Below are positions 3,767-14,549 of a DNA stretch of 64,000 bases, piece by piece. Source of the stretch: Nitrososphaera sp. GTDB lineage: Archaea; Thermoproteota; Nitrososphaeria; Nitrososphaerales; Nitrososphaeraceae. The notes under the pieces were generated by a model that did not search any database, was not told the DNA's origin, and saw only the letters and a list, made by a program, of their open reading frames with translations. Within the stretch, counting starts at the first letter, position 1, and each line of letters begins with the position of its first letter. The position numbers and the translations under genes are program-made. The DNA lies in the NCBI GenBank assembly GCA_029263715.1, contig JAJUFP010000003.1, positions 124,001 to 188,000 of the forward strand, written 5' to 3'.

Positions 3767-3890
3767 GCGGGGGTCGCCAAGCCCGGTCAACGGCGTGAGA
3801 TCAGTATCTGACACGAAGCTCAGATGTTATTCTGATGACTGGGTCACCTCATCCCTTAGGGGTTCGTGGGTTCAAATCCCACCCCCCGCA
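3767..3890 (+). tRNA. tRNA-Leu with intron in the anticodon region
   Basis: The ends form a perfect 7-bp acceptor stem (3767-3773 GCGGGGG with 3883-3889 CCCCCGC) and A3890 is the discriminator base typical of tRNA-Leu. The D-arm (GCCAAGC...GGC), the class II variable arm (TCCCTTAGGGGTTC at 3852-3865) and the T-arm (GTGGG TTCAAAT CCCAC at 3866-3882) all match archaeal tRNA-Leu. The gene is 124 bases, about 40 longer than a mature tRNA-Leu, and the excess lies in the anticodon arm (roughly 3804-3845), so an intron is inferred. The best anticodon reading is CAG after a U33-like T, but I could not place a standard bulge-helix-bulge cleanly. CCA is not encoded. Confidence 0.85.
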
Positions 3891-3985
3891 CTATTTTACA
3901 ATCTCAGGCAATGATTTTGGTTCTTCGCTCCCTCTTGCGTTTACCCGTAAAGCATATCGAATTTATCCCAATACAACAACATCAG

Positions 3986-4334: not shown

Positions 4335-5492
4335 TTACTGCAGCAGGCTGTGGGATATCACCAGCCTCATTATCTCTGAAGTGCCCTCGCCTATGGTCAT
4401 CATCCTTGCATCCCTCCAGTGCCTGTGCACGTCGTACTTGTCCGCGTATCCGTAACCACCATGTATCTGGATGACCTGGTCAGACACCTTCATGGCAGTC
4501 TCTGACGCAAATAGCTTGGCCTGCGAGGCCTGAAGCGAAAAATCCTTGCCGCTCTGTTTCATCCACGCAGCCCTAAAGGTAAGCTGCCTTGCAGCGCTTA
4601 TCTCCGTGGACATGTCTGCAAGCTTTTGCCTTGTCATCTGAAACTGCGATATGGGACTACCAAATGCAACCCTCTCCTTGCTAAATGACAGGGCCTTTTC
4701 AAAGGCGATCTGGGCAACACCCACCGCCAGCGCAGCTATGGCTATCCTCCCAATCTGCAGCATGTGCTTGGTGTACTCAAATCCCTGCCCCTCTGCACCA
4801 AGCAGGTTCCTGCCGGGCACTACACAGTCCTCAAAAAAGACATCCGTCCACGTCGAGCCCCTGATGCCCAGCTTTTCGATATTCTCGCCGATCCTCAGGC
4901 CCTTGCTGTCCCGGTCCACAAGAAATATGCAGGGCCCGTTGTCCGTTTTGGCAACTGCAAAGTAGACGTCTGCCTCGCCTCCGTTGGTTATGAAAGTCTT
5001 TTTGCCGTTCAATATGTAACTGCCGTCCTGGAACTTGGCCCTTGTGTGTATGTCGCCTGCATCAGAGCCCGAGTGCGGCTCCGTCAGGGCAAACGCTGCC
5101 AGCTTTTCGCCCTGTATAAGCGGTTTTAGGTACTTTGTCTTCTGCTCCTCGCTTCCGTAGAAGGCTATGCCGGTGCACGACGTGCCGTGGATGGCTGCCG
5201 ATACGCCGGTGCTTGCGCAGGTCATCCCAAGCATCTCTACTGCGGCAATGTAAACCGGGTAGGGGAGGCCCTGGCCGCCGTACTGCTTGGGAAATGCCAT
5301 GCTGGTAAAGCCGTGCGTGAACAGCTTACCCAAATTCTCGCGAGGGAAGATCCCTTCATCGATCTTTTTGGCGGTGGGCATTATCTCTTGTTCTAGAAAT
5401 TCGCCAAAGGATTCAAGCAGCTGCGTAAAGTTGGGATTTGTCGGATAAAGCATCGTGATGGTGGTCTGCAGTTCCGGCCCAAACAGTGTCAT
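4335..5492 (-). CDS. Acyl-CoA dehydrogenase
   Basis: 385 residues, the standard length of a soluble FAD-dependent acyl-CoA dehydrogenase, which oxidises acyl-CoA to trans-2-enoyl-CoA. Family marks: the FALTEPHSGSDAGDI segment contacting FAD and substrate, FITNGGEAD, and the C-terminal QIHGGYGY...RDARMM...GEGTSEIMR. The Glu of GEGT aligns with the catalytic base of medium-chain enzymes. The first methionine (MTLFGP) is used; MLYPTN at residue 14 is an alternative start. It is divergent from the iorAB-thiolase-DUF35 operon across a 200-base spacer, so it may act on the same acyl-CoA compounds; that link is inference. Confidence 0.93.
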   Translation of the reverse strand: MTLFGPELQTTITMLYPTNPNFTQLLESFGEFLEQEIMPTAKKIDEGIFPRENLGKLFTHGFTSMAFPKQYGGQGLPYPVYIAAVEMLGMTCASTGVSAAIHGTSCTGIAFYGSEEQKTKYLKPLIQGEKLAAFALTEPHSGSDAGDIHTRAKFQDGSYILNGKKTFITNGGEADVYFAVAKTDNGPCIFLVDRDSKGLRIGENIEKLGIRGSTWTDVFFEDCVVPGRNLLGAEGQGFEYTKHMLQIGRIAIAALAVGVAQIAFEKALSFSKERVAFGSPISQFQMTRQKLADMSTEISAARQLTFRAAWMKQSGKDFSLQASQAKLFASETAMKVSDQVIQIHGGYGYADKYDVHRHWRDARMMTIGEGTSEIMRLVISHSLLQ

Positions 5493-5693: not shown

Positions 5694-5712
5694 TGTGATA
5701 GTCCAGAGATAC

Positions 5713-7881
5713 GTGCCTCCTAGGGGGGCGTCGGATCCTGCAGCAAAGGGAAACGATGCTGCCCTGCTTGCAAGGAAGGGCGAGAAGATCGTTGCAAGCG
5801 CGCCGCTGGCAATAATCCGAGCGGCGCTGGAATCCAGCATCAGTTACGTGGCCGGATATCCAGGTGCTCCCACAGCCGACCTCATCGACCTGCTTTCAGA
5901 ATCAAGCCCTGTTATCAAGGACCTTGGCATATTCTTCGAGTCTTCTACCAACGAGGCGTCTGCTGCGACAAAGCTCCTTGCATCAGTTTACGACAAGATA
6001 GGGGGTTTTGTCAACTGGAAGGTGGTGGGCACAAACGTGGCCGCCGACGTACTTGCGCACATCACCTCTTCTGGAACCGTTGGTTCCTCGGTGATAATCG
6101 TAGGCGAGGATTACGAGACCGACAGCACGACGGTGGAGATGAAGAGTTACATGTACGGAAAGGGCTTCTGCATGCCTGTGATAGACCCAGTTGGAAGCCC
6201 GATGCATGTCTACCGGCTTGCAAAGCATGCGTTTAGGCTGTCTGAATACTGCAACATGCCCGTCATGTTCCTTTTGAGAACCATGACTGGAAACTGCATC
6301 GGGTCCATAGTCTGCGAAGACGATATCCGGCCAGCTGAGATAAGCGCCAAAAACAAACAGCCGGTCTGGGATCCGGATACCAGCCGATATCCGTTGGGGG
6401 ACCGCTCAAAGGCGCATGCCACAGAGAAATACCTGGAGAGGATACCCAAGGCCATAGACTACATAGCCAGCAACGGCCTCAACAACTACGTAAAGGGGAG
6501 AAACAGCAAGGTAGGCTTCATCACCCATGGCGGCGTATTCAACTCGTTTATGGACGCCATGGTGCAGCTGGGACGGGCGGACATCTCCGGCGGATGCGAA
6601 TACGATGTCTTGAACCTGAATATCGTGTATCCACTGGTTCCTGACGAGATAGTCAAGTTCGCGACTGGCAAGGAAGCCATCTTTCTGATAGAGGAAGGAG
6701 CGCCTGCCTACCTAGAAGAGGCAATAAGAAGCATTTTTCATGGGGCAGGGATCGACGTGCAGCTTTACGGCAAGGAGGGCTCCGGAAGGGGCTTCATACC
6801 TGTGACCGGCGCCCTGGACGTGGACGTGCTTATGGAACCCCTCACCAGGATTCTCTCGGTAATAGAACCCTACTACACAGCACCGCGTGGAAAACTTGCA
6901 GAAATCATGAAGCACAGGGAGAAGGCCGCCAGGGAGTCCCTCAAAGTGGTGGTGCCAAGGACGCCCACGTTTTGCACCGGCTGCCCAGAAAGGCCGATCT
7001 TTACCGCGCTGAAGTGGCTTGATGAGCGGTTTGGCAGAAGTATCTACGCCGGCGACATCGGCTGCTACACCATGGCGCAGCTGCCGCCCTTTGGCACGTC
7101 CGATTCGTGCACGGGGATGGGGACGTCCCTTGACTCGGCGCTGGGCCTTTCCCAGTTCTACAAATCCCGCGTGATAGCCGCCATGGGGGACGGCACGTTC
7201 TTCCACCGGGGGATAACCGACGTTGACAACGTGATCTACAACCTCACCAAGGAGACCGACGTGAACATCATTTTCATAATATTTGAAAATTACTGGACGG
7301 CCATGACCGGCCACCAGCCCAACCCTGCAAGCAAGTCGGACTCGGGAATGAACGTGAACTACCGACAGGAAAGCGCGGCAAGGCCCAGCATCGAGGCCAT
7401 CCTCAAGGCGCACGGTGTGACCTGGATAAAGAAGGTCAACCCCTTTGACTTTTACAGCACCCTTGAAACGCTGCTGGATGCCTATTCCCAAGACCGGGGC
7501 CTTCGAGTCGTGATATGCGACGGCGAGTGCACCCTCGCAAGAACAAGAAGGGAGCTTCCAATTATGGAGTCCAACATCGCCAAGGGTGTGCGGGTAGAGC
7601 AGGTCAAGTACAAAATCGACGAAAAGATCTGTAGCGGCTGCTTCCCCTGCGAAAAGTACTCCGGCTGTCCCAGCGTGACGGTGGTAAAGAACCCAAACCC
7701 GCTGAGGACCGGCTACATAAAGCAGACCGAAGAAACGTGCACAGGATGCGGCGTCTGCGGCATAACCAGCATCTTTGGCCTATGCCCGTCTACCTACCGG
7801 GTTACAGAAATACACAATCCCAGCATGCTGGAGCGGCTGCGGTTCAGATTCTCCCAATCCATAATTGGGATGTTGCGGTGA
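5713..7881 (+). CDS. iorA: Indolepyruvate ferredoxin oxidoreductase alpha subunit-like
   Basis: 722 residues from GTG 5713 (728 from GTG 5695). The N-terminal pyruvate:ferredoxin oxidoreductase fold carries the YVAGYPGAPTADLI signature. The TPP-binding domain has GDIGCYTMAQLPPF and GDGTFFHRGITDVDNVIYN. The C-terminus has two [4Fe-4S] ferredoxin clusters (CSGCFPCEKYSGC and CTGCGVCG...CP). The family oxidatively decarboxylates aryl- or branched 2-oxoacids to acyl-CoA, reducing ferredoxin. The true substrate is unknown. The gene leads an operon in which every junction overlaps or nearly does, linking it to iorB, thiolase-fold and DUF35 proteins, so its acyl-CoA product may feed them. Confidence 0.9.
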   Translation: MPPRGASDPAAKGNDAALLARKGEKIVASAPLAIIRAALESSISYVAGYPGAPTADLIDLLSESSPVIKDLGIFFESSTNEASAATKLLASVYDKIGGFVNWKVVGTNVAADVLAHITSSGTVGSSVIIVGEDYETDSTTVEMKSYMYGKGFCMPVIDPVGSPMHVYRLAKHAFRLSEYCNMPVMFLLRTMTGNCIGSIVCEDDIRPAEISAKNKQPVWDPDTSRYPLGDRSKAHATEKYLERIPKAIDYIASNGLNNYVKGRNSKVGFITHGGVFNSFMDAMVQLGRADISGGCEYDVLNLNIVYPLVPDEIVKFATGKEAIFLIEEGAPAYLEEAIRSIFHGAGIDVQLYGKEGSGRGFIPVTGALDVDVLMEPLTRILSVIEPYYTAPRGKLAEIMKHREKAARESLKVVVPRTPTFCTGCPERPIFTALKWLDERFGRSIYAGDIGCYTMAQLPPFGTSDSCTGMGTSLDSALGLSQFYKSRVIAAMGDGTFFHRGITDVDNVIYNLTKETDVNIIFIIFENYWTAMTGHQPNPASKSDSGMNVNYRQESAARPSIEAILKAHGVTWIKKVNPFDFYSTLETLLDAYSQDRGLRVVICDGECTLARTRRELPIMESNIAKGVRVEQVKYKIDEKICSGCFPCEKYSGCPSVTVVKNPNPLRTGYIKQTEETCTGCGVCGITSIFGLCPSTYRVTEIHNPSMLERLRFRFSQSIIGMLR

Positions 7882-9596
7882 TGCAGATGGATAAATGGAA
7901 GATCTACCGGGTGCTTGTGCCGTCGGTTGGAGGGCAGGGTGGAGGCACCATAACCGAGATCCTGTACAAGGCCGTCGTTATCGAAAGAGAAAAGGTTGCA
8001 TCAGAGAAGGGCCTGGCCGACAGGATAGCTGCAAGAACCGACCTTGAATACCGATACATGATCCCCGGATTGGCCCAGAGGAACGGTTCTGTTTACAGCA
8101 CCGTCTCGTTCGTATCCCCGCAGGAGCTGGACCTCCCAGAATCAGCCTTCATCCTTTCTGAGCGGTTTTACACCGCCAGCGCGGACGTGATGGTGGCGCA
8201 GGAGCTGGCCGAGGCTGTCCGGTTTGCCAGCGAGGGCCTGCTAAAGGCAGACGCGGTGGCCATAGTCAACGAGCACAGGTTTCTGACAAGCGTGGAAAAG
8301 ATGCCTGTAACCAAGGACCTCGTTGACACAGGCGACCAGGTAAACACGATAAAAAAACTGGCCGGGACCTACGTCGGGCTAAATGCCCACGAGCTGGCCC
8401 TTGCCAACGAGATGAAGCCGGTGTACGCAAACACCATGCTTCTTGGAGCGCTGTGCGCCTCAAAAGCTGTTCCAATAAGCAAAGAGTCCTTCCTCAGGGC
8501 CATGGCTGAAAGGTTCTCCGGAAAGACCCTTGAAGAGAATGTGAAGGCATTTGAAATAGGCTACGCCCATGTCCTGTCAGCTAACGGTGAATCTCGGCCC
8601 ATCGACTCTCTCGGCATGGATGTCCGGCAGATCATTGACAGGAACTACCGGCAACTGCTGGGCTCAAGGGGAAGAAAGAGTGCAGAAATGTACTTGCAGT
8701 ACATGGACAGCATGACAACTAAACTGCCGGCAAACCTGACAGGCATATTTGCTGAGGCTGTGGGGCAGCTGGTGGACTTTGAAGGCTGGGACCATGTACG
8801 CATCTATGCTGACAGCGTCATGGAAATCCTGGAGCTGGACCGGCAGAAGGGTGACGGGAGCTTCAGGCTTGTCTCAAGCTACGCCAAGCACGTGGCCGGC
8901 AGGCTGATGAAATGGGAAGGCCCCTTTGAAGTTGCCAGGATAAAGTCAAAGAATGTCTACTCCACAAAGCCTGACACTATAATCAAGGTCGAAGCGCTCC
9001 TGCAGCCCAACGTGGAAGAGATCTACGGGATGGTCCCTGTGAAACTCCACAACCTGATCTGCAGAATGATTCCCTGGTGGCCGGAGTACATCGAAAAGCA
9101 CAAGCACGACGGCCAGCCCATGTCGGTCAACATAACCGGCGTTGGCTACCTGAAACTCTGGCTGCTCTGGAAGCTATCATTCCTGCACAAGCATTCCGTC
9201 CGGTACCATAAAGAGATGGCCTTTGTTAGACGCTTTACAGACACAGTCAAAGAGATCGCCGGCATAGACTACGAGCTTGGCTGCCTGGTGGCAGACTATG
9301 CCCAGTACATAAGGGGGTTCTCCTTTGTCAGGGCAAGGAACATCGAGGTGTTTGAGATCCTTGTACACACCGTGATCAAAAAGTGTGTCGAGATGGACAG
9401 AAGCCTTGAGAATGCCGATCACCGGATCGCAAGGTCGGCCTTTGTTGCAGCAAGAAACATGGTAACCCTTGACGGGACGGGGAAGGACAGGATCCTCAGA
9501 TTCATGGGTGAGCTAGAAGATCTATTCCAGAAAAAGAAGTACGGGCTTTTGTATGCAAAACTGGCGCTGCGGCAGCTCACGCCGGTAGCAGGATGA
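7881..9596 (+). CDS. iorB: Indolepyruvate ferredoxin oxidoreductase beta subunit-like, long form
   Basis: 571 residues from the ATG whose A is the last base of the iorA stop, so the two are translationally coupled. The N-terminal about 190 residues are the gamma-type domain of 2-oxoacid:ferredoxin oxidoreductases (VPSVGGQGGGTITEIL, then GLAQRNGSVYSTV). Ordinary archaeal IorB ends near residue 200. Here a further about 380 residues follow, resembling the extra C-terminal domain found at the end of large fused bacterial IorAB proteins (PYTRLL-type region around KWEGPFEVARIKSKNVYST). It should form the heterodimer with IorA. The function of the extension is not known. Confidence 0.85.
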   Translation: MQMDKWKIYRVLVPSVGGQGGGTITEILYKAVVIEREKVASEKGLADRIAARTDLEYRYMIPGLAQRNGSVYSTVSFVSPQELDLPESAFILSERFYTASADVMVAQELAEAVRFASEGLLKADAVAIVNEHRFLTSVEKMPVTKDLVDTGDQVNTIKKLAGTYVGLNAHELALANEMKPVYANTMLLGALCASKAVPISKESFLRAMAERFSGKTLEENVKAFEIGYAHVLSANGESRPIDSLGMDVRQIIDRNYRQLLGSRGRKSAEMYLQYMDSMTTKLPANLTGIFAEAVGQLVDFEGWDHVRIYADSVMEILELDRQKGDGSFRLVSSYAKHVAGRLMKWEGPFEVARIKSKNVYSTKPDTIIKVEALLQPNVEEIYGMVPVKLHNLICRMIPWWPEYIEKHKHDGQPMSVNITGVGYLKLWLLWKLSFLHKHSVRYHKEMAFVRRFTDTVKEIAGIDYELGCLVADYAQYIRGFSFVRARNIEVFEILVHTVIKKCVEMDRSLENADHRIARSAFVAARNMVTLDGTGKDRILRFMGELEDLFQKKKYGLLYAKLALRQLTPVAG

Positions 9597-10762
9597 TATT
9601 CATGACGGACAAGGTGGCCATCGTCGGCTTGGGGTACTCTGGCTTTTCTCCATCCACCGACCGCGTCTCGTACAAGGAAATGATGTTTGAGGCCGCAGTA
9701 AAAGCGTATAGGGATGCCGGCATAGATGCAAGAAAGGATGTGCAAAGCTTCATCTGCTGCACCGAAGATTTCTGGGAGGGAAACAGCATCGCCGACGAGT
9801 ACATGCCAGACCAGTTGGGAGGAGCCCTCCGGCCGGTATGCACGGTGGCAGCCGACGGTCTGTACGGCGTGATAACCGCGTTTATGCAGATAAGGGCAGG
9901 TCTTGTGGATATTGCGGTAGTTGAATCCCACAGCAAGCTTTCAGACGTCGTAAGCAAAGACGATATTGCAAGGTTTGCCATCGACCCGCTTTTTGGCGTC
10001 AGGAACTTGGATCCAAATCCCTCGTTTCTGGCGGGACTGGAGATGAACAGATTTCTGCATGAAACCGGCAACAGCAGGGAGTCATGCGCCGAGGTTGCAT
10101 CCAAGAATCTCAAAAACGCTACTTCAAACCCCCGGGCCAGCTACGGATCAAAAAAATCACCCAAAGAGATCCTTTCATCAGACGTCCTGGCCTATCCGCT
10201 GACAAAACTTGAGGCCAGCAAGCCGGCGGACGGTTGCGTTGTGCTTGTCCTTGCCTCTGAAAGCAGGGCGCGGTCTCTTGCGGAGCAGCCGGTCTGGATA
10301 ACCGGCGTGGGGTGGTGCTCCGAGTCCCCTTGGATAGAGGGAAGGGACATGTCGTCGGCCGGCTATGCATCGACAAGTTGCAGGATGGCGTACAAGATGG
10401 CCGGAATCAAAGACCCGGGAAAAGAGCTGGACCTTGCAGAGATAGACGACACGTTCTCTTACAAAGAGCTCCAGCACATGGAGGCGCTGGACCTGTGTGG
10501 TAGAGGGGAGTCAGGAAGGCTGGTAGAGCGCGGATTTACCGCAAGGGACGGCGTCCTGCCGGTGAATCCCTCCGGCGGGTCTCTTGGGCTTGGCTACATG
10601 GCAGAGGCAACAGGCCTTCACCGGATCCTCGAAGCATCGCTGCAGCTTCAAGGAAGGGCTCGGAAAATGCAGGTAAAGGATGCCAAAAGGGCTTTAGTCC
10701 AGAGCTGGCGTGGAATTCCCACGGCCTCCGGCGCCGTGGTTGTCCTGGAGGGTGGGCCATGA
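9593..10762 (+). CDS. Thiolase-fold protein 1 (non-canonical active site)
   Basis: 389 residues with the SCP2/thiolase fold (KVAIVGLGYSGF start; PVNPSGGSLGLG near the end), family COG0183. It overlaps iorB by 4 bases (ATGA). Three active-site elements look altered. The nucleophile motif after R80 reads PVCTVAADG, with Val at the aligned Cys position and a Cys two residues earlier. The GHP histidine is replaced (GYM, Tyr335). The C-terminal CxG motif reads VQSWRG. Claisen condensation or cleavage is therefore doubtful. Thiolase-fold aldolases such as Ltp2, which act with DUF35 partners and use Tyr, are a possible model. It pairs with the next gene. Confidence 0.8.
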   Translation: MIFMTDKVAIVGLGYSGFSPSTDRVSYKEMMFEAAVKAYRDAGIDARKDVQSFICCTEDFWEGNSIADEYMPDQLGGALRPVCTVAADGLYGVITAFMQIRAGLVDIAVVESHSKLSDVVSKDDIARFAIDPLFGVRNLDPNPSFLAGLEMNRFLHETGNSRESCAEVASKNLKNATSNPRASYGSKKSPKEILSSDVLAYPLTKLEASKPADGCVVLVLASESRARSLAEQPVWITGVGWCSESPWIEGRDMSSAGYASTSCRMAYKMAGIKDPGKELDLAEIDDTFSYKELQHMEALDLCGRGESGRLVERGFTARDGVLPVNPSGGSLGLGYMAEATGLHRILEASLQLQGRARKMQVKDAKRALVQSWRGIPTASGAVVVLEGGP

Positions 10763-11922
10763 CCAGAAGAGTTGCGATAGTTGGGGCCGGAATGACGCTC
10801 TTTAGAAGGCGGCTTTTAGAAACCGGAAAGGAGCTCTGCTTTGAAGCATCCCGTGCGGCTCTTGATTCTGCCAACCTGGACGCAAGCGACATAGAAGCAG
10901 TCGTTTTAGGCTCTGCGCCGGACGCGTTTGATGGCCTGCACATGAAAGGTGAATATCTTCTTGATGGAGCCGGGGCAAGCAACAAGCCGTACACCCGGGT
11001 GTACGTCGGCGGCGGCACCGGAGTCTTTACTCCCATAGCTGCATGGTGGCACGTGGCCTCCGGACTTTTTGACGTCTGCCTTGCAGTCTGCGAGGAAAAA
11101 ATGTCCCCGCTTTATCCGCATCCGCAGAAAGCTTTCTGGAGCATATTTGACCACACACTAGAAAGGCCCCTTGGGGTGAATCTGGTCTGGATCTTTGCGC
11201 TAGAGATGCGCCGGTACATGCACAAGTACAGCATCAGCGAAGAGGATATCGCGCAGGTGGCCGTCAAGAACAAGCGCAACGCGCTGGACCATCCGTGCGC
11301 GCAGCTTGCGGACAGGATAACCGTTGACGACGTGATGAAGTCTGAGCCGATAGTGTGGCCAGTCAAGAAGCTGGACATAAGCCCACCAAGTGATGGCGCG
11401 GCCGCCGTCATCCTAGCGTCGGAGGAAGTGGCGCGGAAAATAACGAAGGACCCTGTCTGGATAGACGGCGTGGGATGGAACCTTGACAGCACGTACTGGA
11501 CCAACAGGGAGCTGGCCTACCCACAGTACCTGGAAAATGCCGCCAGGATGGCCTACAGGATGGCCAAAGTAGAGAACCCGCGAAAGGAGATAGACGTTGC
11601 CGAGGTCTACGATCCTTTCGACTACAAGGAGCTGCACCACCTTGAAGGCCTGCAGCTGGCAGAAAGGGGCAAAGCGGCCAAGCTGACATCGTCCGGTGCA
11701 ACCGAAAGAAACGGCGAGTTTCCCGTCAACCCCTCAGGGGGGCTGCTGGGGGTTGGAAACCCCATCGCGGCTGCCGGCATGATGAAGATATGCGAGCTTT
11801 TTTGGCAGCTGAGGGGCGAGGCTGGAAAGCGGCAGGTAAAAAGGGATGCAAGGACCGGGCTTGCGCAGGCTTGGGGCGACTTGATGCAGTTCAGCTCTGT
11901 CGTTGTGCTGAGGAGCAGATGA
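10759..11922 (+). CDS. Thiolase-fold protein 2 (Cys-less)
   Basis: 387 residues, same family as the preceding gene and overlapping it by 4 bases. N-terminal MTRRVAIVGAGMTLF and C-terminal VNPSGGLLGVG are intact fold markers. The nucleophile segment reads RVYVGGGTGVF, with Gly at the Cys position. The GHP motif is GNP (Asn334), and the last motif is AQAWGD with no Cys. The Y-x-GGG-TG pattern resembles lipid-transfer-protein/Ltp2-type members, which work with DUF35 partners. Two dissimilar subunits encoded together suggest a hetero-oligomer with the two DUF35 proteins downstream. Annotation pipelines would probably call this an acetyl-CoA acetyltransferase; the residues do not support that activity. 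Confidence 0.8.
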   Translation: MTRRVAIVGAGMTLFRRRLLETGKELCFEASRAALDSANLDASDIEAVVLGSAPDAFDGLHMKGEYLLDGAGASNKPYTRVYVGGGTGVFTPIAAWWHVASGLFDVCLAVCEEKMSPLYPHPQKAFWSIFDHTLERPLGVNLVWIFALEMRRYMHKYSISEEDIAQVAVKNKRNALDHPCAQLADRITVDDVMKSEPIVWPVKKLDISPPSDGAAAVILASEEVARKITKDPVWIDGVGWNLDSTYWTNRELAYPQYLENAARMAYRMAKVENPRKEIDVAEVYDPFDYKELHHLEGLQLAERGKAAKLTSSGATERNGEFPVNPSGGLLGVGNPIAAAGMMKICELFWQLRGEAGKRQVKRDARTGLAQAWGDLMQFSSVVVLRSR

Positions 11923-11923
11923 T

Positions 11924-12424
11924 ATGGTCTACTCTGGCATCGGGATAAGCCCGCAAGACGTGGCAAATTCAAGATACTTGACCGTACCGTACTCTGCAAA
12001 CTTGCGCTACCGGTGGAGCACGGGGGCCGCGGTGGGAAGGTTTCTTGCCGAACTGAAGAACGGCAAGATCGTTGGAAGAAAATGTGACAAGTGCAAGCGG
12101 GTTCTGGTTCCGCCAAGGATGTTCTGTGAAAGGGATTTTATCCAGACTTCCAAGTGGGTTTACGTCCAAGATGCCGGAATCGTAGACACGTACTCTATCT
12201 CATACATAGCTGCCGATGCCAGCCGGCTAGAGAAGCCCTTGATCGTTGCGGTGATCAGGCTCGATGGCACCGGTGAGGCCGGGATACTTCACATCTTGGG
12301 TGGTATCGAGCCTAAAGACGTCATGATTGGAATGAGGGTAAAGGCTGTCTGGAAGCCTAAAAGAAGGAGGGTTGGCGCGATAACCGACATACGCTACTTT
12401 GCGCCGGCGGGAGACGCCAAATGA
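11924..12424 (+). CDS. DUF35 zinc-ribbon/OB-fold protein 1
   Basis: 166 residues. A short N-terminal helix region precedes a rubredoxin-like zinc ribbon (CDKCKRVLVPPRMFCERD at about 66-83) and an OB-fold beta barrel (GIVDTYSISY...DVMIGMRVKAVW). The ribbon keeps three Cys; the fourth position is Asp. DUF35 proteins bind thiolase-fold partners and channel CoA intermediates, as seen in archaeal acetoacetyl-CoA thiolase/HMG-CoA synthase complexes and Ltp2-ChsH2. The ATG starts one base after the thiolase-2 stop, so coupling is likely. It overlaps the second DUF35 gene by 4 bases. Confidence 0.88.
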   Translation: MVYSGIGISPQDVANSRYLTVPYSANLRYRWSTGAAVGRFLAELKNGKIVGRKCDKCKRVLVPPRMFCERDFIQTSKWVYVQDAGIVDTYSISYIAADASRLEKPLIVAVIRLDGTGEAGILHILGGIEPKDVMIGMRVKAVWKPKRRRVGAITDIRYFAPAGDAK

Positions 12425-12828
12425 CCAACATAGATCACTGGTCCAGCAGCATTGATCTAGACTACAGATATACTGCAGGAGTTGCCGGCGAGACATTCCT
12501 TCGCAAAATAGCCAAGGGCAGAATCATGGCCTCAAGGTGCTCGTACTGCCGGCTGACCTATCTGCCGCCAAGGCTTTACTGCGAGAAATGCCTAAGAAAA
12601 ATAGACACTTGGGTCCAAGTGCGCGGGAAAGGTGAGCTGTACTCCTACACTATGACAGGCCGCGGAAAGAAAAAATCGTTGTACGGTTTGGTAAAGTTTG
12701 CAGGGATAGAAGGCGGGCTTGTAGGAAGGATAGTTGGTTCGGATCTTGCAGACCTAAAATTCGGGATGCCTGTCAGGGTGGACTTGAAGAATTCAGAGAA
12801 AGGACTCCTCGTTTACCTGCATGTCTGA
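12421..12828 (+). CDS. DUF35 zinc-ribbon/OB-fold protein 2
   Basis: 135 residues, overlapping the preceding gene by ATGA. The zinc ribbon is complete (CSYCRLTYLPPRLYCEKC, four Cys), followed by an OB-fold (KGELYSYTMTGRG...LKFGMPVRVDL). It is shorter than its neighbour at the C-terminus. Two DUF35 genes after two thiolase-fold genes suggest two matched pairs or one 2+2 assembly. Which DUF35 pairs with which thiolase cannot be read from sequence. This is the last gene of the operon. Confidence 0.88.
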   Translation: MTNIDHWSSSIDLDYRYTAGVAGETFLRKIAKGRIMASRCSYCRLTYLPPRLYCEKCLRKIDTWVQVRGKGELYSYTMTGRGKKKSLYGLVKFAGIEGGLVGRIVGSDLADLKFGMPVRVDLKNSEKGLLVYLHV

Positions 12829-13118: not shown

Positions 13119-14549
13119 TTGAGCGATTATGAAATCCAGTCCTCTGTGGGTAAAGATACCGTTTCCACGTGGGATGAATTTTCCAACAGGATAAGGCTCT
13201 TGCCATGGTGGCTCAGCTACAACAAGGGAAGCAACTACCAGGCATTCCTAAAAAACAGCATAGCCGAGCTGGGCGAAAAGGTTGGTCTGCAGGACAAGTG
13301 GCTTAAGAGCATACTTAGACACGCAGTTTCTGAATTCTCGAAAAAGGGGCTTGGCGCAGACTATTATGGCTACCACAATATAGACCATGAACTTGAAGCG
13401 GCTTACTTTACTCTTCTTGCTGCCAGCAACCAAACCGGCAGTTTCATGTTTACTCAGAAGGAGCTTTGCTACCTTTTTGTAGCTGCGCTTTTTCACGACT
13501 ACGATCCTTCGAAGGAATTCGATAAGCCTAACGAGGACGAAATAGAGCGCATCGTCAGAAGCGATGCAAAAATAAGGAAGTACATCGACGATGTCGGACT
13601 CGATATCGACGTAGTCATCGCGCTTATCTACCGTACAGCGTACCCGTTCAAAGGGGAGATAGCCAAGCATGCATCGGCAAGGATGGAAGAGCTTTTCACC
13701 CACGCAAAAATCCCTGAATCAGACCAGAAAACCAGAAAAAGGTACACAGACCTTGGATGGTTTCTGTCGGTGGCAGAACGAGTGGCCGGCTACGCGCTGG
13801 GCGATTTTGAGCATGCCAAGGACTTGGCAAGACGCAACGCGCATGCCCTTGGATGGCATCCCTCTGTGATAAACCGAAACTCTGTCAAATACTTCAGCAT
13901 GCTCAAAGAAGAAAAGGAAATGTTGGACTGGGTCCTGCGGGGCAGCACAGAAAAACAAAGGCAGAATTTTGAAAACAACATCCGGTCTTTTGAAGAAGCA
14001 TGGCAGAAGGAACTGGATGCAAAGGCAGCAGAACTGAAGCTAGTATCTGTCGTTGAAAAGATGGCAAATAACAAAGCCTCGGATACCGTAAATGAAGTAC
14101 TCCGGCTGTACAGGGAAACACCCATCCTCTTCAAGGTTGACGAGGAAGCTTTCATAAAAACAATGTTCGATACCGATTCGATACTGATTACACTGAGAAT
14201 AGATGGCGATGGCGGCAGGATAATTGGCTATGCCAAGGGCGGGCCGCTAGAGAAATACAAGCTGAGGCCGGGAACTTCAGACCAGAACCTGGGACAAAGA
14301 AACACTGCCTATCTTGAAGGCATTGGAATTCATCACGAGTACTGGGGAGAAAAAGGAGGACATGTTCTGCGTATGGAATTTCTAAACGAGGCAAGCAGGC
14401 TGGGCTACCAGTTCGTGACTGGGTACGCCCACCGCGACGTGATAAGCCAGAGGATCAACAACGGGGAAAACATAGAGATAGTGCGCAAATACGATCCGGA
14501 TAATCTGGACTATTACAGAATTGTTCTTGCAAAAACACCCGATCATTAG
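13119..14549 (+). CDS. HD-domain phosphohydrolase fused to a GNAT acetyltransferase domain
   Basis: 476 residues from TTG 13119, chosen because the TATA box and AGGTG lie just upstream. The N-terminal domain has an HD metal-binding pattern: YHNIDHELEA (His86, His90) and LFHDYDPS (His126, Asp127), followed by helices to about residue 260. HD proteins of this type hydrolyse phosphodiesters or nucleotides. A charged helical linker (about 270-330) leads to a C-terminal region resembling GNAT N-acetyltransferases (GRIIGYAKGG; YLEGIGIHHEYWGEKGG, the pyrophosphate-loop area; DYYRIVL last strand). I know of no named family with this order. The substrate is unknown. It stands alone with its own promoter. 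Confidence 0.7.
   Translation: MSDYEIQSSVGKDTVSTWDEFSNRIRLLPWWLSYNKGSNYQAFLKNSIAELGEKVGLQDKWLKSILRHAVSEFSKKGLGADYYGYHNIDHELEAAYFTLLAASNQTGSFMFTQKELCYLFVAALFHDYDPSKEFDKPNEDEIERIVRSDAKIRKYIDDVGLDIDVVIALIYRTAYPFKGEIAKHASARMEELFTHAKIPESDQKTRKRYTDLGWFLSVAERVAGYALGDFEHAKDLARRNAHALGWHPSVINRNSVKYFSMLKEEKEMLDWVLRGSTEKQRQNFENNIRSFEEAWQKELDAKAAELKLVSVVEKMANNKASDTVNEVLRLYRETPILFKVDEEAFIKTMFDTDSILITLRIDGDGGRIIGYAKGGPLEKYKLRPGTSDQNLGQRNTAYLEGIGIHHEYWGEKGGHVLRMEFLNEASRLGYQFVTGYAHRDVISQRINNGENIEIVRKYDPDNLDYYRIVLAKTPDH

Follow-up and report, generated by a model that had tools for sequence, protein, structure and literature searches.

The genes thlA, thlB, DUF35-1 and DUF35-2, carried by a 64,000-nucleotide stretch of Nitrososphaera sp. 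DNA (hereafter the window; GenBank assembly GCA_029263715.1, contig JAJUFP010000003.1, positions 124,001 to 188,000), would encode a heteromeric acyl-CoA carbon-carbon lyase or aldolase complex, a reading to which we give an even chance from the sequences. The names thlA (9593-10762) and thlB (10759-11922) are coined here for two genes encoding thiolase-fold proteins. The unit they form with the two DUF35 genes, thlA-thlB-DUF35-DUF35, is found throughout the TACK (Thaumarchaeota, Aigarchaeota, Crenarchaeota and Korarchaeota) and Asgard archaea. The chemistry, stoichiometry, pathway order, direction and substrate proposed below are all inferred.

In the window, the unit follows two genes for a 2-oxoacid oxidoreductase, the six genes running from 5713 (or 5695) to 12828 on the same strand:

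5713-7881, + strand: iorA, alpha subunit of a thiamine diphosphate (TPP)-dependent 2-oxoacid:ferredoxin oxidoreductase (Pfam TPP_enzyme_C)
7881-9596, + strand: iorB, long form with C-terminal DUF6537 (Pfam POR and DUF6537)
9593-10762, + strand: thlA, degenerate thiolase-fold subunit, PRK06066-like (Pfam Thiolase_C_1)
10759-11922, + strand: thlB, Cys-less thiolase-fold subunit, PRK06065 (Pfam Thiolase_C_1)
11924-12424, + strand: DUF35-1, zinc ribbon and oligonucleotide/oligosaccharide-binding (OB) fold (Pfam zf-ChsH2 and OB_ChsH2_C)
12421-12828, + strand: DUF35-2, zinc ribbon and OB fold (Pfam zf-ChsH2 and OB_ChsH2_C), positional counterpart of SSO2064 (PDB 3IRB)

The junctions are exactly those described in an earlier note on this DNA. 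The end of iorA is also the first base of iorB (7881, overlap of 1 base), overlaps of 4 bases join iorB (end 9596) to thlA (start 9593), thlA (end 10762) to thlB (start 10759) and DUF35-1 (end 12424) to DUF35-2 (start 12421), and a gap of 1 base separates thlB (end 11922) from DUF35-1 (start 11924). Two GTG codons, at 5695 and 5713, are possible starts of iorA.

The thiolase-fold subunits and the four-gene unit

Conservation was analysed in 102 non-redundant ThlB and 100 ThlA sequences, 95 of the latter coming from the same loci as a ThlB. Redundant loci, with the same last 200 residues as another, and loci with a gene of less than 330 residues were left out. Both sets lean to close relatives, the best 80 of at least 528 confirmed ThlB relatives having been kept.

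Both thiolase-fold proteins lack the nucleophilic Cys of thiolases and the His of the GHP motif, as had been claimed. In the phmmer alignment with the archaeal thiolase of 6ESQ, ThlB Gly85 falls on the nucleophilic Cys and Asn334 on the GH histidine; the second catalytic Cys of thiolases (HDCF or C-terminal CxG) is missing as well, ThlB having YDPF and AWGDLMQ instead. In ThlA, aligned with the same structure, the nucleophile position holds Val85 or Ala86, the local placement of the gap being ambiguous, and the GHP histidine position is Tyr335. A displaced Cys nucleophile is rejected on the Cys column counts: no column exceeds 73% Cys in ThlA or 71% in ThlB, and none of these columns stands at an aligned catalytic position. 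Cys83 of ThlA, which the earlier note had singled out as the nucleophile that would undo its proposal if a catalytic His were restored with it, is Cys in 42/100 sequences, and the lost histidine has no substitute.

The two subunits differ in the way these positions are kept. The following ThlB residues are invariant (102/102): Gly84, Gly85 and Gly88; Tyr284, Asp285, Pro286, Phe287, Tyr289, Lys290, Glu291, His293 and His294; and Gly333, Asn334, Pro335, Trp372, Gly373, Asp374 and Gln377. The ThlA column of Tyr335 is among the most variable of the protein (rank 324 of 389; Tyr 33, His 19, Asn 16 and Val 13 of 100), and Thr287 is Thr in 37/100 and Arg in 26/100. Where ThlB has Tyr284, ThlA has Asp285, the first residue of a DDTF motif (Asp in 80/100). 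Some ThlA columns are kept, namely Asp88 (98/100), Asn325 (100/100) and Arg373 (94/100); over the whole proteins, 118 of 387 columns have an entropy below 0.1 in ThlB, versus 17 of 389 in ThlA. Since the site is frozen in ThlB and free to vary in ThlA, ThlB is most simply read as the putative enzyme and ThlA as a degenerate structural partner, probably non-catalytic. The idea that both subunits are equal Tyr-type aldolases, put forward earlier, is thereby ruled out, the ThlA site being unconserved.

The predicted structures of both proteins have a thiolase fold (predicted local distance difference test, pLDDT, 89.0 for ThlA and 84.4 for ThlB). ThlB belongs to NCBIfam NF004721 (PRK06065; 670 bits, cut-off 455), and the best NCBIfam match of ThlA, to NF004722 (PRK06066), stays below the cut-off of that family (486.4 bits, cut-off 516). 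Neither family has an assigned function and both are labelled ‘thiolase domain-containing protein’. The two DUF35 proteins carry a zinc ribbon and an OB fold (PF12172 and PF01796) above gathering scores. The fourth putative zinc ligand of DUF35-1 is Asp71 here and in 4 other loci, and Cys in 81 of 86 aligned sequences. Elsewhere in this genome, contig C2 carries a Cys-type thiolase and an adjoining DUF35-like open reading frame (ORF), detected by BLAST and giving no match to the Pfam DUF35 model.

A strong ThlA-family match (above 300 bits) occurs in 76 of 398 Thermoproteota genomes, weak matches of the same search to other thiolases occurring in 382 of the 398 at E 0.001. A ThlB-type match lies beside thlA in at least 73 of these 76 genomes (67 among the matches listed, the rest in fetched loci; in G224, G355 and G387 the adjacent ThlB is not among the matches listed). 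The order thlA-thlB-DUF35-DUF35, with the genes close together, is found in 31 of 37 fetched neighbourhoods. The exceptions are L048 and L058, in which no DUF35 match was seen, L059, where thlA and thlB lie on opposite strands, L062, whose DUF35 genes come after a gap of about 2 kb, L063, with one DUF35 match, and L064, at a contig end. Exactly two DUF35 genes stand among the next four same-strand genes in 86 of 114 thlB loci (duplicates included); among the remaining loci, several have a truncated contig or an acyl-CoA synthetase gene between thlB and the DUF35 genes.

A scan of genome contigs with the ThlB alignment confirmed the at least 528 relatives mentioned above, the best 80 of which come from Nitrosocaldus, soil Thaumarchaeota, Bathyarchaeota, Geothermarchaeota, Marsarchaeota, Baldrarchaeum and Thorarchaeota. 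The distant modules L068 and L069 are in the set of 102 and their genomes (G217, G134) outside the 76, while L062 and L063, whose genes did not cluster as thlB, are outside the 102. An invention by ammonia oxidisers is thus ruled out by the presence of the module in wider Thermoproteota and in Asgard archaea.

In a tree of the 102 ThlB sequences, the window protein and the Nitrosocaldus-type loci are sister groups (support 100/94), and 7 of the 8 members of family f22 form one clade (100/100), the long-branched L043 falling elsewhere. This family is termed Sulfolobales-type here because the second DUF35 protein of its locus L036 is identical over 144 residues to SSO2064 of Sulfolobus solfataricus (3IRB). 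Therefore, the first DUF35 structure belongs to this module. ThlB was also seen in metagenome-assembled genomes labelled Armatimonadetes (L146) and Anaerolineales (L147). The latter sequence sits within Thorarchaeota rows on an end branch of zero length, which suggests mis-binning.

Known thiolase-fold aldolases and the putative reaction

Two characterised aldolases combine a Cys-less thiolase fold with a DUF35 partner. The steroid side-chain aldolase Ltp2-ChsH2 of Thermomonospora curvata (6OK1) resembles the module by its thiolase fold and DUF35 partner (encoded here by adjacent genes), its lack of the Cys and the Tyr of its YDxF motif. Unlike ThlA-ThlB, its thiolase fold is homodimeric and its DUF35 domain is fused to a hydratase; the His of its YDHF motif is Pro in ThlB, and the two proteins share 27% identity in the fold alignment. 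The bile-acid aldolase Sal-Shy of Comamonas testosteroni (9MYR) shares the Gly at the Cys position, a YDxF-type Tyr and a DUF35 partner, but it has a single thiolase-fold gene and needs Cys304 of its YDCY motif (23% identity in the fold alignment). According to PMC12329534, the base is Tyr294 in Ltp2 and Tyr302 in Sal, and Sal has a Gly at the thiolase Cys position, as ThlB does with Gly85.

Ltp2 was aligned through a bridging Rhodococcus DUF35-thiolase protein (phmmer to 6OK1, MAFFT to ThlA and ThlB), Tyr294 (YDHF) and Tyr344 (GEAY) of 6OK1 being located by counting along the printed alignment row. Tyr294 corresponds to ThlB Tyr284, the invariant Tyr of YDPF. The second Tyr of Ltp2, Tyr344, falls on Asn334 of ThlB and on the unconserved Tyr335 of ThlA, and the catalytic Cys304 of Sal falls on Pro286 of ThlB (Pro in 102/102), which does not replace its function since Pro cannot act as an acid. 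By its sequence, ThlB thus has the hallmarks of the known aldolases, that is, no Cys and a Tyr base, but neither of their known acids. The invariant Asp374, on a C-terminal loop, is our guess for this role.

The archaeal thiolase/3-hydroxy-3-methylglutaryl-CoA (HMG-CoA) synthase complex (6ESQ), which also associates an archaeal thiolase fold with a DUF35 protein and is among the nearest folds, differs by its own Cys, HDCF motif and GH histidine and by having HMG-CoA synthase as a partner. The PhlABC and MucABC acyltransferases (5M3K, 9VBO) differ in having one DUF35 protein (PhlB), and PhlC presumably uses a catalytic Cys. The title of one structure entry names a C88S variant of a related enzyme. 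PhlABC is like the module in associating one active and one inactive thiolase-superfamily subunit with a DUF35 protein, as described in PMC2954200, which also proposes acyl-CoA binding as a general role for SSO2064, a protein solved alone. The folds nearest to ThlB are the Cys-type archaeal thiolases 7YVY and 6ET9, chains of Sal and Ltp2 appearing first at ranks 21 and 27; if the aldolase chemistry is real, an archaeal thiolase therefore probably acquired it independently.

By analogy with the alpha-beta-beta-alpha complexes of Ltp2 and Sal, a ThlA-ThlB heterodimer could be flanked by one DUF35 protein on each side, with ThlB as the catalytic subunit and ThlA as its degenerate structural partner. 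No acyl-enzyme would be formed because the nucleophilic Cys is missing. Tyr284, at the place of Ltp2 Tyr294, may deprotonate or protonate the beta-hydroxyl, Asn334, in place of the GHP histidine, may hold the enolate oxygen, and an acid, perhaps Asp374, would act at the alpha-carbon. An acyl-CoA aldolase-like thiolase/DUF35 complex, as proposed in the earlier note, thus stays the best reading for ThlB, in which the Tyr and the replacement of Cys by Gly are invariant, and does not extend to ThlA.

The same enolate-stabilising pocket could serve a non-aldol acyl-CoA enzyme built on the thiolase scaffold, such as a decarboxylase, a hydratase/dehydratase or an isomerase. Asn334 and the glycine-rich loops could stabilise an enolate without any carbon-carbon cleavage, no known aldolase acid is kept and the cassette revealed no dedicated hydratase; furthermore, PMC12329534 reports a very slow decarboxylation of malonyl-CoA by TbSLP, which has a YDCF motif. 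We nevertheless hold this explanation to be doubtful, the combination of an invariant Tyr at the Ltp2 base position with a Gly at the nucleophile position being that of the two characterised aldolases.

Linked genes, pathway and competing explanations

A further gene, divergent from the operon, completes the set considered here:

4335-5492, - strand: acyl-CoA dehydrogenase (Pfam Acyl-CoA_dh_N/M/1)

Its Glu369, within an EGT motif, is presumably the base of medium-chain acyl-CoA dehydrogenase type. Neighbouring genes were counted within 5.5 kb of thlB in the 102 non-redundant loci, 55 of which have 6.5 kb on both sides. Acyl-CoA dehydrogenase genes are found in 39/102, acetyl/acyl-CoA synthetase genes in 26/102 and a second AMP-binding ligase in 8/102; a scan for acyl-CoA synthetase specificity motifs gave no match. 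Other neighbours are Cys-type archaeal thiolases (F5; 18/102), classical thiolases (11/102), methylmalonyl-CoA mutase (10/102) and the alpha subunit of electron transfer flavoprotein (ETF; 5/102). The Glu of the EGT motif is present in 28 of 40 nearby dehydrogenases, with Asp in 4 more; it contrasts with isovaleryl-CoA dehydrogenase. In L131 (13536-17174) and similar Bathyarchaeota-type loci, the module lies beside genes for methylmalonyl-CoA mutase, a B12-binding subunit, MeaB and a corrinoid adenosyltransferase; on its other side stands a divergent Cys-type thiolase/DUF35 pair.

IorAB is a rarer neighbour. The window type is found in 4/102 loci (the window genome and three non-redundant Nitrosocaldus-type loci), a short canonical type in 3/102, all Sulfolobales-type, and neither was found nearby in 95/102. 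In L038, genes for a canonical IorA (617 aa) and a canonical IorB (188 aa) come right after the second DUF35 gene, and the gene just before thlA encodes an acyl-CoA dehydrogenase; L036 and L037 have one opposite-strand gene ahead of the IorA gene. The fact that two different IorAB types adjoin one module in two lineages argues for a functional link between 2-oxoacid oxidoreductase and module. In L060, L061 and L077 the dehydrogenase gene lies beyond iorAB, outside the 5.5-kb radius. The window IorA scores 325 bits against TIGR03336 (indolepyruvate:ferredoxin oxidoreductase), below the curated cut-off of 650.9, and the DUF6537 domain of IorB is found in 8 of the 398 genomes of the phylum only.

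Two Nitrosocaldaceae genomes, G257 and G273, have the long IorB and lack the module. Comparison of L183 (G273) with L061 shows 82-93% identity for the larger flanking genes, 56% and 63% for two small neighbours, 88% for iorA and 74% for iorB. Both the four-gene block, on one side of iorAB, and the dehydrogenase gene, on the other, are missing from L183 at E 0.001, apart from a dehydrogenase paralogue; genome-wide, there are two ACAD_M matches in each of the module genomes G197 and G350 and one in each of G257 and G273. L182 (G257), a 9.4-kb contig ending just past iorB, has iorB without module, and iorA was not seen on it. Dehydrogenase and module therefore go together and iorAB can stand alone; a single gain or loss may explain the Nitrosocaldaceae difference. 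The earlier view, in which IorAB was the core and the dehydrogenase an optional step, is reversed by this pattern: the dehydrogenase is tied to the module more tightly than IorAB is, since L183 lacks both and yet keeps iorAB. Furthermore, an acyl-CoA dehydrogenase is encoded in 76/76 strong-ThlA genomes versus 101 of the 322 others.

The most economical pathway for these genes would start with IorAB, converting a 2-oxoacid to an acyl-CoA, which the dehydrogenase would oxidise to an enoyl-CoA; the single enoyl-CoA hydratase seen in the genome could then add water, and ThlB would split the resulting beta-hydroxyacyl-CoA into a shorter acyl-CoA and an aldehyde or ketone. The proposed flow from IorAB to the aldolase gains some support from the occurrence of a different IorAB in the three Sulfolobales-type loci. 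Ltp2 reportedly releases propionyl-CoA when its substrate carries an alpha-methyl group, and the methylmalonyl-CoA mutase neighbours in Bathyarchaeota-type loci fit propionyl-CoA. These two points and the Glu of the dehydrogenase EGT motif lean weakly towards alpha-branched substrates (valine, isoleucine or isoprenoid-like chains). Routes from leucine to acetone and from valine or isoleucine to propionyl-CoA might be envisaged, and we commit to none of them.

On a Rhodococcus plasmid (L158, NZ_CP088909.1, 688-6688), genes for two acyl-CoA dehydrogenases, two MaoC proteins, a shorter ThlA-like protein, a ThlB-like protein and a DUF35 protein stand in a row. The ThlB-like protein is Cys-less and 38% identical to ThlB, with GGATG, YAPF and NP motifs, and its ThlA-like neighbour is annotated ‘hypothetical protein’. 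This one example suggests that the same logic, hydratase included, exists in bacteria.

Several points weigh against an aldolase fed in this way. The hydratase gene is missing from the cassette, the window genome (93.57% complete) having one enoyl-CoA hydratase match and no MaoC hydratase match, and 63/102 loci show no acyl-CoA dehydrogenase gene within 5.5 kb of thlB. The co-occurrence of dehydrogenase and ThlA is confounded by phylogeny, related genomes not being independent. Concerning ThlB itself, the second catalytic residue of the known aldolases is lost, in sequence and fold it resembles Cys-type archaeal thiolases more closely than Ltp2 or Sal, and residues 331-335 of its model are below pLDDT 50. 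Nor would its invariance by itself prove catalysis, because the set is made of close relatives, with partly shared ancestry, and ThlB is conserved throughout.

IorAB could also act apart from the module. PMC5817080 reports iorAB in Candidatus Nitrosocaldus islandicus, its absence from the other ammonia-oxidising archaea then sequenced, and a proposed fermentation of aromatic amino acids, a proposal repeated in PMC7819960; the genes themselves were thus already published for this group. Such an independent role would fit G273, which has iorA and iorB but lacks the module, and G257, which has iorB. However, IorAB adjoins the module in seven loci of the two types described above, and in the window genome the seven genes form one block. 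Moreover, the linked dehydrogenase would find no beta-hydrogen to remove in arylacetyl-CoAs. An aromatic fermentation unrelated to the module therefore seems a questionable account, about as much so as a non-aldol enzyme.

The complex might instead catalyse a condensation, in which an acyl-CoA enolate is added to a ketone or aldehyde for biosynthesis, with IorAB as a reductive carboxylase producing the 2-oxoacid. Ferredoxin-dependent carboxylation is known in other archaea, and a biosynthetic reaction of this kind is plausible in an ammonia oxidiser (amoA is present). DUF35 partners do occur in synthetic enzymes, namely the thiolase/HMG-CoA synthase complex (6ESQ) and PhlABC (PMC2954200). Against this, the neighbours seen in relatives (acyl-CoA dehydrogenase, ETF, AMP-forming acyl-CoA synthetases, methylmalonyl-CoA mutase) look catabolic, and we consider the condensing direction unlikely. 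Finally, it is highly improbable that this is an ordinary thiolase with an overlooked or displaced Cys: the nearest folds and sequences are indeed archaeal thiolases, and the NCBIfam name says as much, but the Cys column counts and the invariant Gly85 and Asn334 of ThlB oppose it.

The seven-gene block and its meaning

The host of the window is an ammonia oxidiser, with two AmoA matches (G000:C10:185045-185593 and G000:C3:29066-29614). Among the 70 genomes of its family, many of them incomplete, it is the only one with a ThlB above the family cut-off. Directly upstream of the seven genes lies:

3767-3890, + strand: tRNA gene with an intron (Rfam tRNA, 32.9 bits, gathering 29)

This gene, missed by plain ARAGORN, was found by Rfam and by ARAGORN with introns. 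A congener (L191, G421) has an empty site, with the order dnaK-dnaJ-hsp20-tRNA-476-aa ORF-cupredoxin-like gene; in the window all seven genes stand between the tRNA gene and the ORF. DNA identity to L191 (blastn) stops at 3891, at the end of the tRNA gene, and restarts at 13168, inside the ORF. The seven genes were gained, which is the more parsimonious, or lost as one block. The 476-aa ORF (13119-14549) has no Pfam or NCBIfam match and is 75% identical to the copy of the congener. The far end of the block revealed no attachment-site repeat, and no integrase search was made. The G+C content of the operon (5695-12828) is 54.9%, stepped 7.1-kb segments giving 46.8-54.7%. Base composition gives no clear sign of foreign origin, because dnaK, dnaJ and the thermosome gene of the same window are similarly rich (54.5-55.6%).

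No description of the module was found in the open-access papers searched, and the word thiolase occurs nowhere in the main texts of PMC5817080 and PMC7819960. Judging from the sequences, the module would be a thiolase-fold/DUF35 carbon-carbon bond enzyme with a new active site, encoded by a fully heteromeric gene set. In its most specific form, which we put forward tentatively and below the general reading, a TACK/Asgard-wide lyase with a Gly-YDPF-Asn-WGD site, a dead partner and two DUF35 scaffolds would cleave branched beta-hydroxyacyl-CoAs into propionyl-CoA or acetyl-CoA and a carbonyl compound.

The conservation of gene order from Thorarchaeota to Sulfolobales-type genomes probably reflects an important role for a set annotated only as ‘thiolase domain-containing protein’; one of its subunits has been known since 2010 as an orphan crystal structure (3IRB). 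The asymmetry between ThlB and ThlA leads to a concrete catalytic hypothesis, and the relatives present in genetically tractable Sulfolobales allow its testing. In several thermophilic ammonia oxidisers, iorAB lies beside genes for an acyl-CoA dehydrogenase and for an aldolase-like complex, a setting that agrees better with branched-chain 2-oxoacids than with the published aromatic fermentation. If the specific lyase reading is true, archaea would possess an exit from beta-oxidation that needs neither the keto step nor the Cys thiolase, and an ammonia oxidiser would carry a transferable cassette for the use of branched 2-oxoacids.

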